Shown here: positions 1,126-50,191 of the stretch, piece after piece
Layout of the letters: every line of letters begins with the position of its first letter
Numbering within the stretch: position 1 is the stretch's first letter
IMG/VR virus record: IMGVR_UViG_3300025646_000024
Location: 1-64,000 of that record
Length of the DNA stretch: 64,000 nucleotides
Strand: one strand, 5' to 3'
Origin: a virus
Made by a program: the position numbers and the translations under genes
The notes under the pieces: generated by a model
The model's input: the letters and a program-made list of their open reading frames with translations, nothing else
Told to the model about the DNA's origin: nothing
Databases searched by the model: none

Positions 1126-1133
1126 TATAAATA
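1126..1133 (+). promoter_or_regulatory. T4-type late promoter TATAAATA
   Basis: Exact match to the T4 late -10 consensus TATAAATA, starting one base after the stop of the preceding gene. It lies upstream of the left arm of the structured element, so RNA from this site would contain both arms and the terminator hairpin. Confidence 0.6.
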
Positions 1134-1143
1134 CTAATGTCTG

Positions 1144-1223
1144 TTGGTACTGCAATTCTCTACAGACAAGATTAGGTGCTCTTTTGGGCACCTTTTCTAT
1201 TATAAATAATAATGCAGTACCAA
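1144..1223 (+). promoter_or_regulatory. Structured leader of homing endonuclease: inverted repeat enclosing a terminator and a late promoter
   Basis: The perfect 11-bp arms TTGGTACTGCA (1144-1154) and TGCAGTACCAA (1213-1223) enclose a terminator-like hairpin, AGGTGC...GCACCT (1174-1193, followed by TTTTCT), and an exact late promoter TATAAATA (1201-1208). The right arm ends 10 nt before the ATG at 1234. Transcripts entering from upstream could fold the right arm away from ribosomes, whereas RNA started at the internal late promoter lacks the left arm. A second copy of this architecture precedes the GIY-YIG gene at 8353. Confidence 0.7.
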
Positions 1224-1233
1224 TAGAATATAA

Positions 1234-7381: not shown

Positions 7382-7872
7382 TTATGATGTGTGGCATTCC
7401 TTGTGCTGGCAAATCGAGCTACATTCGCAGGGGAACTGAAAACACTGATGTGTTTGATGAATATGTAATCCTATCTACAGATGATTACATTGAAGAGTAT
7501 GCCAAAGCAAATGGCAAGACTTACAATGAAGTCTTTGATGATGTCATTGGTGAAGCTACCACACGCATGTATCAAGACCTTGAGCTTGCAATCCAGCGAG
7601 GCAAATCTATTATCTGGGATCAGACTAATGTATCAAAGAAGTCTCGTATGAAGAAACTAAAGAAGATTCCTGATACTTATACTAAGACTGCAGTAGTTCT
7701 TCCTATTACTCTAGAGGAAGCTATTATTCGCAATTCTCAACGAGCAAACAAGTTTATTGCACGTTCTGTATTATCTCGTATGTATCATCAATTTGAAATT
7801 CCAACTGAAGATGAAGGTTTTGATGTTATCATGACTCATGATGGATCGCATCTTAAACTGCAGGTAGCCTGA
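7372..7872 (+). CDS. P-loop polynucleotide kinase-like protein
   Basis: The 166-residue protein has Walker A GIPCAGKSS (about residues 8-16), an STDDYIEEY substrate segment, and the DQTN signature (near residue 84) of the T4 PNK/PseT kinase domain and its AAA_33 relatives. It matches the size of the PNK kinase domain alone, without the C-terminal phosphatase domain found in T4 PseT. Directly downstream of RNA ligase 1, it most likely phosphorylates 5'-OH RNA ends during tRNA repair. The phosphatase partner appears as a separate gene at 9115. It abuts the deaminase gene. Confidence 0.88.
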   Translation: MELIMMCGIPCAGKSSYIRRGTENTDVFDEYVILSTDDYIEEYAKANGKTYNEVFDDVIGEATTRMYQDLELAIQRGKSIIWDQTNVSKKSRMKKLKKIPDTYTKTAVVLPITLEEAIIRNSQRANKFIARSVLSRMYHQFEIPTEDEGFDVIMTHDGSHLKLQVA

Positions 7873-8252
7873 TGATTTCTGACTCGGTGTTTGACCAGGC
7901 TATTGCAACTGCAAAGTCTTCTCCATCTAAAAAGCAAGTTGGTGCTCTTCTATTGAGGAGAAATAAAATTATTACAACTGCAGTTAATCTTGAAACTAAG
8001 TCTCATCCACTCCAAGCTAAGTTTGCTGAACGAGTAGGACTTTGGCAAAAAATATATTTACATAGTGAGATTCATGCATTAATTAAATGTAAAGAACCCG
8101 TAGATACTATTGTCGTTGCAAGAGTAAATCCTCAAAATAAATTACGAAATGCAAAACCATGTCCTATATGTTCACTTGCTATCGAAGAATCGGGCATTAA
8201 CCACATATATTATTCAACTGATGATGGATTTATGTACAAATACAAAGCATAA
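7872..8252 (+). CDS. Zinc-dependent nucleotide/cytidine deaminase-family protein
   Basis: The 126-residue protein carries the two signatures of the cytidine/deoxycytidylate deaminase fold: H-S-E in LHSEIHALIK (about residue 57, zinc ligand and catalytic Glu) and PCPIC (about residues 97-101, two Cys ligands), with GALLL and ARVN strands in place. It is shorter than T4 dCMP deaminase (Cd, 193 aa), so the substrate (dCMP, free base or RNA) is uncertain. The start overlaps the kinase stop by one base. Its stop codon begins the second homing-endonuclease element. Confidence 0.8.
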   Translation: MISDSVFDQAIATAKSSPSKKQVGALLLRRNKIITTAVNLETKSHPLQAKFAERVGLWQKIYLHSEIHALIKCKEPVDTIVVARVNPQNKLRNAKPCPICSLAIEESGINHIYYSTDDGFMYKYKA

Positions 8253-8253
8253 A

Positions 8254-8340
8254 TATAAATGCCTGAGTTGGGTGCAATCTTCGCAGGTAAAGAAGGAGCT
8301 TTATGCTCCTTCTTCTAGTATAAATATTACTGCACCCAAC
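8254..8340 (+). promoter_or_regulatory. Structured leader of GIY-YIG endonuclease: inverted repeat, terminator hairpin and late promoter
   Basis: Components in order: TATAAATG (8254-8261), left arm GTTGGGTGCA (8267-8276), a perfect 10-bp hairpin AAGAAGGAGC/GCTCCTTCTT (8290-8314), an exact late promoter TATAAATA (8319-8326), and right arm TGCACCCAAC (8331-8340). The ATG follows 12 nt later. The layout and spacing copy the element at 1126-1223 (4 nt between late promoter and right arm in both), while the arm sequences differ but remain perfectly complementary. Confidence 0.7.
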
Positions 8341-8352
8341 TTAAGAGCAGTT

Positions 8353-9042
8353 ATGTATTCTCCAAGAATATACACATATAAAATTACCTTTGAAGAGGTT
8401 CCGTACTACTATTATGGAATGCATGAAGAAAAGGTATATGATGAACCATATTGGGGTTCCCCAGTAACAAATAAATGGTGCTGGAATTTTTATACGCCAA
8501 AGAAACAAATATTGGAAGTATTTTCTACTAGAGAAGATGCATATAAAGTAGAAATGCGATTAATCAAATCAGTTTTAAATGTTGATAAATGGTGCCTCAA
8601 TATGAATTGTGGAGGGATTATTTCTCGTGAAATTTATGTTAAAACTGGTACAATGACTTATGAACTTGGGATAGGAATACATGCACAATCACCAAAGGAG
8701 CGCAAAGAGGTAGCAAAACTTGGAGGTAAAATGTCTAAATCTTTGGGAGTAGGTGTGCATGGCAGAACAGATAGTCAGATGACTTTAGATGCAAAAAAAT
8801 CTGTAGAAACTCATCGAAAAAACAATACAGGATGTTTTGATTCAAACCATTCGTTGCAAAGAAAAGGAGGAATCATTCAAGGAAAAAAGAATGTTTCAAA
8901 TGGACATTTGCAACAATTATCAAAATTAAAATATATTTGTTTAGAAACTGGATTTATATCAAGTGCCAGAGGATTATCTGTATATCAAAAAAATAGAGGA
9001 ATTTGTACTACCAAAAGAAAGCTATTAGATATGCCAATATAA
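8353..9042 (+). CDS. GIY-YIG-type homing endonuclease
   Basis: The start at ATG 8353 follows the late promoter at 8319. The longer frame reaching back into the deaminase gene would run through the terminator and is rejected. The 229-residue protein contains IYTYKITFEE then YYYYGMHEE...YWGSP, a divergent GIY-YIG core, and FSTREDAYKVEMRLIK, matching the family's second helix with the catalytic Glu. Gly/Lys-rich repeats follow (LGIGIHAQSPKERK, LGVGVHGRTDSQM) like NUMOD DNA-binding modules. The AT-rich, Lys-rich gene interrupts the RNA-repair cluster. A new sigma-70 promoter lies right behind it. Confidence 0.75.
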   Translation: MYSPRIYTYKITFEEVPYYYYGMHEEKVYDEPYWGSPVTNKWCWNFYTPKKQILEVFSTREDAYKVEMRLIKSVLNVDKWCLNMNCGGIISREIYVKTGTMTYELGIGIHAQSPKERKEVAKLGGKMSKSLGVGVHGRTDSQMTLDAKKSVETHRKNNTGCFDSNHSLQRKGGIIQGKKNVSNGHLQQLSKLKYICLETGFISSARGLSVYQKNRGICTTKRKLLDMPI

Positions 9043-11455: not shown

Positions 11456-11486
11456 TGGGGGCTACAAGCCCCCTTTTTTATAAATA
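11456..11486 (+). promoter_or_regulatory. Terminator fused to an exact late promoter
   Basis: The hairpin GGGGGCT/AGCCCCC is followed by T6 (to about 11479), and the T-run runs straight into TATAAATA (11479-11486). This ends early transcription and starts late transcription of the next two genes, marking them as a late island. Confidence 0.75.
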
Positions 11487-11508: not shown

Positions 11509-12150
11509 ATGTACGAAATAATCAGAGAAAAAGACGAAGTAGAAATTGGCTCTAAGACTGGTGGGTTAGTTCCAAAGAAAAAAAGAAGTCCAGCTAATCA
11601 ATATAAGTATGAAAAAGAAAGAAGAGAAAATTTAAAGAAGAAACCAGGAATGACTGGTGATAGTCCATTGATTCAAGCACTTCGTAGAAGAGCACAAGTC
11701 ACTGGAAACTATGCAGAAAGCAAATCGTATTCTCAGTTCCTTGAAGAAGCATTTAAGAGAACAGGTAAAACAATAGGTTTCAAGGTATTTCATCATGGAT
11801 CTGATGCAGACTCAGTTAAAAGCATAAAGAAAGGTGGACCCAAACCATCACCAAAGGGAAGTGAAGGTCCAGGGCATTATGTTACTCCAGATAAAAAGAA
11901 AGCAGACAAATATGCAGAGTTTACTTCTAAACAGAGAAAGAAAAAGCCAGCAACAGTATCATACAGAGTACCAAGCAAAAGAGTAGCTAAAACAGATACT
12001 ATTCCAAAGGGACTGACATCACAGCAAAGAACAACAAAGGAAAAGCCAGTCATTCAAAATACTAGAACTGGTCATGTTGCCATGGATGCAGATTATGCAA
12101 ATTCAAAAATGATACGTAATCCATCACCAACTATTCGTAAAAGAAAGTAA
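11509..12150 (+). CDS. Putative capsid-targeted ADP-ribosyltransferase-like protein
   Basis: The 213-residue basic protein contains SYSQFLEEA at residues 73-81, matching the T4 capsid-targeting sequence (MKTYQEFIAEA in internal proteins), with a gp21-type cleavage context L-E-E|A. Next comes FHHGSDADSVKSIKKGG (94-110) and GHYVTPDKKKADKYAEF (122-138), the H-G-[ST] and G-x-Y-x-T...A-x-x-YA pattern of small ADP-ribosyltransferase/PARP-like folds. A catalytic Glu is not obvious (E178 is a candidate). An exact late promoter sits directly upstream, as expected for a virion protein. The role, an enzyme packaged in the head and injected like T4 Alt, is inferred. Confidence 0.55.
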   Translation: MYEIIREKDEVEIGSKTGGLVPKKKRSPANQYKYEKERRENLKKKPGMTGDSPLIQALRRRAQVTGNYAESKSYSQFLEEAFKRTGKTIGFKVFHHGSDADSVKSIKKGGPKPSPKGSEGPGHYVTPDKKKADKYAEFTSKQRKKKPATVSYRVPSKRVAKTDTIPKGLTSQQRTTKEKPVIQNTRTGHVAMDADYANSKMIRNPSPTIRKRK

Positions 12151-19620: not shown

Positions 19621-19628
19621 AGTATAGT

Positions 19629-19682
19629 ATTAGTTTTCCACAGGTAGAGTATAAATTGTGGAAAAACCTGTGGAAAACTAAT
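19629..19682. repeat. 16-bp inverted repeat with three TTTTCCACA DnaA boxes
   Basis: The arms ATTAGTTTTCCACAGG (19629-19644) and CCTGTGGAAAACTAAT (19667-19682) are perfectly complementary. TTTTCCACA occurs at 19634-19642 (+), 19657-19665 (-) and 19669-19677 (-), so a third box sits in the loop. I recall TTTTCCACA as the DnaA-box form described for the Synechococcus oriC region. Three exact copies in 44 bp are unlikely to be chance. Confidence 0.65.
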
Positions 19683-19752
19683 AGATTAAAAATATGTTAA
19701 AAAATATGTATGAGAGAGATAGAATTATTAAGTATATGTGATAGAAAGAAAG

Positions 19753-26243: not shown

Positions 26244-26300
26244 GGGGGAGCCAGTCTCCCCCATTGATCAGCGATACTGATCGATCAGCAGTGCTGATCA
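26244..26300 (+). promoter_or_regulatory. Hairpin and two adjacent operator palindromes
   Basis: The GGGGGAG/CTCCCCC hairpin (26244-26262) is followed by GATCAGCGATACTGATC (26266-26282) and, directly adjoining, GATCAGCAGTGCTGATC (26283-26299). Both are related to the GATTAGTAnTACTAATC operator. A possible -10 TATAAA lies near 26315. Confidence 0.55.
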
Positions 26301-26408
26301 GTGGGCAGAGGCAGTATAAACGGCCCTTATGGGTCGCCGCCCCCCGTACCCGTGGAAAATTCTAAATACTCAAGCTATAAACCTTTACCAGCGACTTCGA
26401 TATATTCA

Positions 26409-50183: not shown

Positions 50184-50191
50184 TATAAATA
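50184..50191 (+). promoter_or_regulatory. Exact late promoter TATAAATA
   Basis: Immediately after the stop of the NblA-like gene; drives the fibre-region genes from 50215. Confidence 0.7.

Follow-up and report, generated by a model that had tools for sequence, protein, structure and literature searches.

The two leaders that precede homing endonuclease genes in the analyzed DNA are members of a large, undescribed family of cyanophage leaders of roughly 100 bases, which probably keep nuclease expression off or low unless reading begins at the late start of the nuclease gene itself. The window, that is, the whole 64,000-nucleotide stretch that was analyzed, is part of an IMG/VR virus record of 80,263 bases; it holds one leader at 1126-1233 (copy 1) and another at 8249-8352 (copy 2). 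The order of parts in the family is as follows: (i) [A/C]TAAATA, 5 nt and a purine, (ii) a short hairpin, P1, with the left arm in its loop, (iii) an intrinsic terminator, (iv) the late-promoter motif TATAAATA, (v) the right arm, and (vi) the ATG of the nuclease gene. The parts of both window copies are listed in Table 1.

Table 1. Parts of the two leader copies in the window and their downstream genes.
Feature	Position	Strand	Remarks
Copy 1, left late-promoter motif TATAAATA	1126..1133	+	[A/C]TAAATA is 1127-1133
Copy 1, P1 5' strand GTCTG	1139..1143	+	partner 3' strand CAGAC, 1163-1167
Copy 1, left arm TTGGTACTGCA	1144..1154	+
Copy 1, terminator hairpin AGGTGCTC-TTTT-GGGCACCT	1174..1193	+
Copy 1, late promoter of the nuclease gene TATAAATA	1201..1208	+
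Copy 1, right arm TGCAGTACCAA (1213-1223) with extension TAGA	1213..1227	+	extension pairs with the P1 5' strand
Copy 1, HNH-type homing endonuclease ORF, 236 aa	1234..1944	+	phrog_655; conserved HH...N...EH..AH residues
Copy 2, left late-promoter-like motif ATAAATA	8249..8255	+	conserved as [A/C]TAAATA in 146 nonredundant leaders; matches the -1 preference of generic late promoters
Copy 2, TAA of the left motif	8250..8252		doubles as stop codon of the deaminase-like ORF 7872-8252 upstream
Copy 2, predicted +1 of the left RNA	8261	+	sixth base past TAAATA; inferred from sequence
Copy 2, P1 5' strand GCCTG	8261..8265	+
Copy 2, left (antisense) arm AGTTGGGTGCA	8266..8276	+	within the P1 loop
Copy 2, P1 3' strand CAGGT	8284..8288	+
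Copy 2, intrinsic terminator hairpin AAGAAGGAGC-TTTAT-GCTCCTTCTT	8290..8314	+	terminator found throughout the family
Copy 2, late promoter of the nuclease gene TATAAATA	8319..8326	+	TA before TAAATA in 95-97% family-wide
Copy 2, right arm TGCACCCAACT	8331..8341	+	4 nt past TATAAATA; predicted mRNA +1 at 8332
Copy 2, weak Shine-Dalgarno-like AAGAG	8343..8347	+	just past the right arm; candidate by sequence reading
Copy 2, homing endonuclease ORF, 229 aa	8353..9042	+	phrog_314; GIY-YIG-like by the YxY...YYYYG motif; ATG at 8353

The first-pass annotation had described copy 2 as a second, collinear leader, and its parts indeed follow the order of copy 1. The spacings it quoted are also correct: the right arm lies 4 nt past TATAAATA in both copies and 10 nt before the ATG in copy 1, and the 12 nt given for copy 2 hold with the arm ended at CCAAC (11 nt if the next T is counted). 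One detail was in error, as CCAAC, said to be shared by both arms, reads CCAAT in copy 1, so that the outer G is paired there as G.U. The middle of the arms, where TAC with GTA stands against G with C, differs by a compensated change in both sequence and length. Three parts come in addition to those of the annotation, namely P1, a second [A/C]TAAATA ahead of each left arm, and the inner terminator, which is a constant element. The paired arms around TATAAATA sites are not a product of chance: arms of at least 11 bp flank two of the five such sites in the window, compared with 0 of 467 in 60 dinucleotide-preserving shuffles. The two sites outside the leaders, 11479-11486 and 50184-50191, both on the + strand, are armless, and the former stands shortly before an ORF at 11509. 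Two other repeats were observed in the window: a perfect 18-nt inverted repeat, TATTAGTTTTCCACAGGT, at 19628-19683, with 20 nt between its arms and without TATAAATA, and a 46-nt near-palindrome, CCCATTGATCAGCGATACTGATCGATCAGCAGTGCTGATCAGTGGG, at 26260-26305. Both window nucleases were assigned to families by motifs and PHROGs; their AlphaFold models were of low confidence and matched no solved structure.

To survey the family, we gathered IMG/VR relatives of both nucleases and the loci found by two protein-independent DNA-pattern scans, 328 loci and 2.6 Mb altogether. A mechanical scan of these sequences for stems of at least 9 Watson-Crick pairs with TAAATA between the arms yielded 220 unique stems, 197 of them with a second TAAATA located 3-18 nt before the left arm; the reversed-sequence control gave 15 and 0, respectively. 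An ORF of at least 60 codons follows 189 of the 197 leaders. The products form 11 N-terminal clusters, including several GIY-YIG-like and NUMOD3 groups, HNH groups, a PD-(D/E)XK-like protein (with a weak Pfam score) and TnpB (OrfB_IS605, 3.8e-25), whereas the single-member cluster L278 has no Pfam match. Every classifiable downstream gene encodes a homing-type nuclease, and at least six nuclease types are represented. We also searched 11 whole records (~2.0 Mb) for the arm-blind pattern TAAATA-N50-80-TATAAATA: all arm-bearing matches precede a nuclease gene, and three armless ones (L359, L362, and L367) precede other genes. The TnpB gene (OrfB_IS605/Cas12f1-like_TNB; L004:6120-7423) lies on a viral contig behind the same leader as the homing endonucleases, which suggests that it is run as a homing-type nuclease. 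Among isolates, the leader occurs in Synechococcus phages S-SRM01 (seven leaders, one of them of type B, described below) and B23. In a locus with the S-SRM01 HNH cassette, a wcaG RNA (RF01761, E 3e-18; L002:448-545) was observed directly upstream of the glycosyltransferase gene adjoining the cassette. Comparison with Rfam gave no match at gathering score for the window and none at E<=0.1 for the leaders of 10 related loci.

The arms co-vary throughout the family. Since alignment of whole leaders by MAFFT misregisters the arms, pairs were counted on blocks registered by the stem itself; the count is thus fitted to the structure, and shuffled and slid versions of the blocks served as a guard. 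Among 60 distinct leaders in register, changes on both sides were found at all 11 of the 11 pairs, 93.9% of cells pair, and 234 cells are doubly changed, compared with 69 in shuffles and 29-64 in slid versions. The covariation score of the arms is 0.865 vs. 0.23. Exchange of right halves between leaders abolishes pairing. The cognate duplex median is -21.6 vs. -8.8 kcal/mol. The suggestion of the first-pass annotation that pairing of the arms is under selection is thus strongly supported by the doubly changed pairs. Identical leaders recur within one genome; for arm similarity within genomes, two near-identical pairs were observed vs. 3.3 expected (p=0.36), a comparison biased toward difference by the merging of identical leaders from the same genome.

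The pairing has a sharp boundary relative to the late promoter of the nuclease gene. Counted from the right TAAATA, the fourth base (-2) is paired in 25% of leaders, the fifth (-1) in 84%, and the sixth to thirteenth (+1 to +8) in 98-100%, after which pairing falls. Generic late promoters of these phages, with the leaders removed, have A or C ahead of TAAATA in 82% of cases and a purine six positions past it in 78%, vs. 54% in the background, so this sixth base is the likely start; this profile agrees with the late consensus reported for cyanophages, NATAAATA (PMC2984593). The complementarity starts within one base of the mRNA start predicted in this way and runs toward the start codon. By sequence, the left arm would reproduce in antisense the first ~11-18 bases of the predicted nuclease mRNA. 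In copy 2, the stem touches the first bases of the weak purine stretch, and AAGAG is mostly outside the pairing.

The left arm is presented by P1, whose loop carries it in a form complementary to the predicted mRNA 5' end from +1. The strands of P1 co-vary as well (CCTG/CAGG, TCTG/CAGA, CCTT/AAGG, CCTA/TAGG, and CTCT/AGAG). As P1 types are few and a swap test is uninformative for them, each type was tabulated and the 3' strand was shuffled as a control: 99% of the predicted left RNAs form P1, vs. 27% with the shuffled strand. In the leaders with a left motif, termed type A, this motif, the start-site purine, and the terminator are all conserved. In 146 leaders, the left motif is preceded by A (76%) or C (22%), and neither G nor T occurs at this position; the sixth position past the left TAAATA holds a purine in 96% of leaders. 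The left motif fits the profile of generic late promoters. The left TAA is also the in-frame stop codon of the upstream gene in 65 of the 197 leaders. A late promoter would require the restriction to A or C, whereas a stop codon alone would not: G or T precedes the stop in 135 of 403 comparisons with cassette-free homologues and in 0 of 65 occupied ends (p=5e-11, with related genes making the comparisons non-independent). Synonymous shifts at occupied ends include GAT TAG to GAC TAAATA and GAG TAA to GAA TAAATA. Two other roles were considered for the left motif. A target site was rejected, as TAAATA is absent from most empty sites, and a maintained direct repeat of the left and right motifs is unlikely, as the base two before TAAATA is T in 95% of right motifs and in 28% of left ones.

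A third pattern scan revealed 42 unique leaders of another layout, type B, probably a separate RNA family. Each has GTGGGCAGCAAC-loop-GTTGCGTAAGTCCCAC, in most cases followed by a T-run; TATAAATA comes next, and after it a right arm that is complementary to the loop, with the complementarity often extending right up to the ATG. The GTGGGCAGCAAC/GTTGCGTAAGTCCCAC hairpin is strongly conserved and has an asymmetric internal loop, CA opposite GTAAGT; it stands ahead of many nuclease genes, at L268, L333, L388, and some 40 further loci. No consistent left late promoter was found in the 42 type B leaders, which do retain the arm in the hairpin loop. Thus, an arm in a hairpin loop is a general feature, whereas a dedicated left promoter is not. 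Complementary arms in the endonuclease leaders of other phages, as proposed by the first-pass annotation, were found mostly; the exceptions are S-PM2 F-CphI, whose leader has a terminator and TATAAATA and no arms, and a few distant HNH genes. In place of the full leader, two distant HNH relatives (L158 and L163) carry a simple, short hairpin that surrounds a TATAAA-type sequence or lies near one.

The leader moves together with its nuclease gene. Comparison of occupied and empty sites revealed insertion of both at gene ends, often with the leader TAA as the upstream stop. In the L254/L164 pair, the occupied site reads ...GAACTTAAA|TAAATA...nuclease...TAA|GACACTTG and the empty one ...GAACTGAAA|TAG|GACACTTG; in this pair and in L086/L226, the insert begins at TAAATA and ends close to the nuclease stop. 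Moreover, 23 of the 80 distinct ten-base arms are shared by more than one nuclease cluster, and identical arms before unrelated nucleases imply that the leader is a movable module. The mobile leader cassette proposed by the first-pass annotation is therefore seen both in the same leader before unrelated nucleases and in the edges visible against empty sites. Some loci show further rearrangements. At L105:290-408 the arms are mismatched, the left being of one type and the right of another, apparently a recombinant between two cassettes. In the L093/L198 and L320/L319 pairs, the nuclease ORF ends in a match to the codons with which the target gene originally finished, and ahead of the leader the target carries its own end in recoded form.

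We see about an even chance that the leader serves as the control element in a movable homing-nuclease cassette and combines a read-through block in cis, escape of the late mRNA, and, in type A, an RNA acting in trans. Transcripts entering from upstream would mostly end at the terminator, and in read-through RNA the left arm would fold onto the right arm and its extension and cover the start region, so that no nuclease is made. The late promoter would produce an mRNA without the left arm, and this mRNA would be translatable. The left [A/C]TAAATA of type A may give rise to a ~57-nt hairpin RNA ended by the terminator, which would pair in trans with the mRNA 5' end and hold nuclease output low as phage DNA copies rise; this RNA is predicted from the combination of a hairpin-presented arm, an inner terminator, and a second late promoter. 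Of these elements, the cis switch by arm pairing is likely. That cyanophage homing nucleases, TnpB included, are limited by a trans-acting, same-strand antisense RNA from tandem late promoters is a tentative reading, to which we assign somewhat less than an even chance. Some observations count against the combined model. Since type B has no left late promoter, a trans RNA made from a dedicated promoter cannot be a general feature. Moreover, arms of the same genome are not clearly held distinct, identical leaders recur in one genome, and the weak Shine-Dalgarno-like sequence is covered by the pairing only in part.

The absence of a left late promoter from type B also favors a serious rival, which may well be correct although we hold it short of even: a stage switch acting in cis only, as in T4 I-TevI and segB and Aeh1 mobE, with the left TAAATA being a stop codon or a relic and P1 a folding intermediate. 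Read-through early or late transcripts would hide the start region, and late transcripts from the internal promoter, devoid of the left arm, would be translated. The part order is the same as in the T4 cases, both window copies are predicted to give read-through RNA with a long stem (-44.3 and -41.3 kcal/mol), and the left TAA is often in frame with the upstream ORF, as counted above. The stage switch named by the first-pass annotation would agree with the T4 precedent in the same way. Such a switch leaves four features unexplained: only A or C precedes the left motif, the predicted left start is a purine, the P1 strands co-vary, and pairing stops at the right start site whatever the arm type. 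These features agree with the left RNA of the combined model.

Two further explanations would deprive the arms of a role in RNA. Action in DNA, either as a site for self-repression by the nuclease or as a cruciform, is suggested by arms that flank a promoter and by I-TevI, which binds an operator over its late promoter (PMC2988022). The arm sequence does not track the protein, however, being unrelated among close relatives of one nuclease and shared by unrelated nucleases; an 11-bp dyad with ~55 bp between its halves is no typical operator spacing, and the pairing tracks the transcript start. We regard this explanation as very improbable. Ordinary insulation, with a terminator for the upstream gene, a late promoter for the next one, and arms that are a by-product of insertion, would fit the armless S-PM2 F-CphI leader and the insertion at gene ends, but it is contradicted by the covariation, as a by-product would give neither the doubly changed pairs nor the pairing frequency observed and would not exclude non-nuclease genes; it is hardly credible.

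The combination of an embedded late promoter with 5'-arm pairing is the known logic of T4 I-TevI, segB, and mobE. In the hairpin-controlled homing endonucleases of this type (I-TevI/II/III, T4 segB, and Aeh1 mobE), hairpins bury the Shine-Dalgarno sequence (PMC2988022). As in those leaders, the nuclease gene is downstream, the late promoter TATAAATA lies in the loop of a long-range RNA stem, and the late transcript, whose start is here predicted from promoter geometry, would lack the 5' arm. In apparent contrast to them, the candidate Shine-Dalgarno sequence lies here at or beyond the edge of the stem; descriptions of the T4-type leaders mention no inner terminator, P1 hairpin, or second late promoter. 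The seg43(25) leader of Aeromonas phage 25 is similar in that its strong hairpin ends just upstream of the ribosome site and leaves it uncovered, whereas the review mentions neither a late promoter or terminator nor a covarying family in its case (PMC2988022). The predicted ~57-nt RNA resembles RNA-OUT of IS10/Tn10, a structured RNA of ~60-70 nt that is complementary to the first bases of the RNA-IN mRNA and blocks translation of a mobile-DNA nuclease (PMC5006887). RNA-OUT is transcribed from the opposite strand and the two RNAs overlap, whereas here the left arm is upstream on the same strand, in tandem, and the complementarity is a separate, co-evolving copy; given the tandem layout, the leader is not a member of the IS10 antisense family. 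A regulatory RNA adjoining a cyanophage homing endonuclease is also known from S-PM2, where cfrI lies near psbA and F-CphI (PMC2984593), but cfrI is an opposite-strand RNA of ~225 nt and the F-CphI leader is armless.

In T4-like phages that infect enteric bacteria or Aeromonas, hairpin control of homing endonucleases has been described for one gene at a time. The cyanophage leader is a single structured, strongly covarying, non-Rfam RNA module that is common to at least six nuclease types and marks homing cassettes of many nuclease families. It thereby provides a sequence signature by which such cassettes can be located and their edges defined exactly. Should the trans RNA prove real, homing genes would share the antisense self-limitation known from insertion sequences, each leader would be a naturally tuned, exchangeable antisense pair, and selfish genes would exercise copy-number-sensitive self-restraint via a shared, exchangeable control module.
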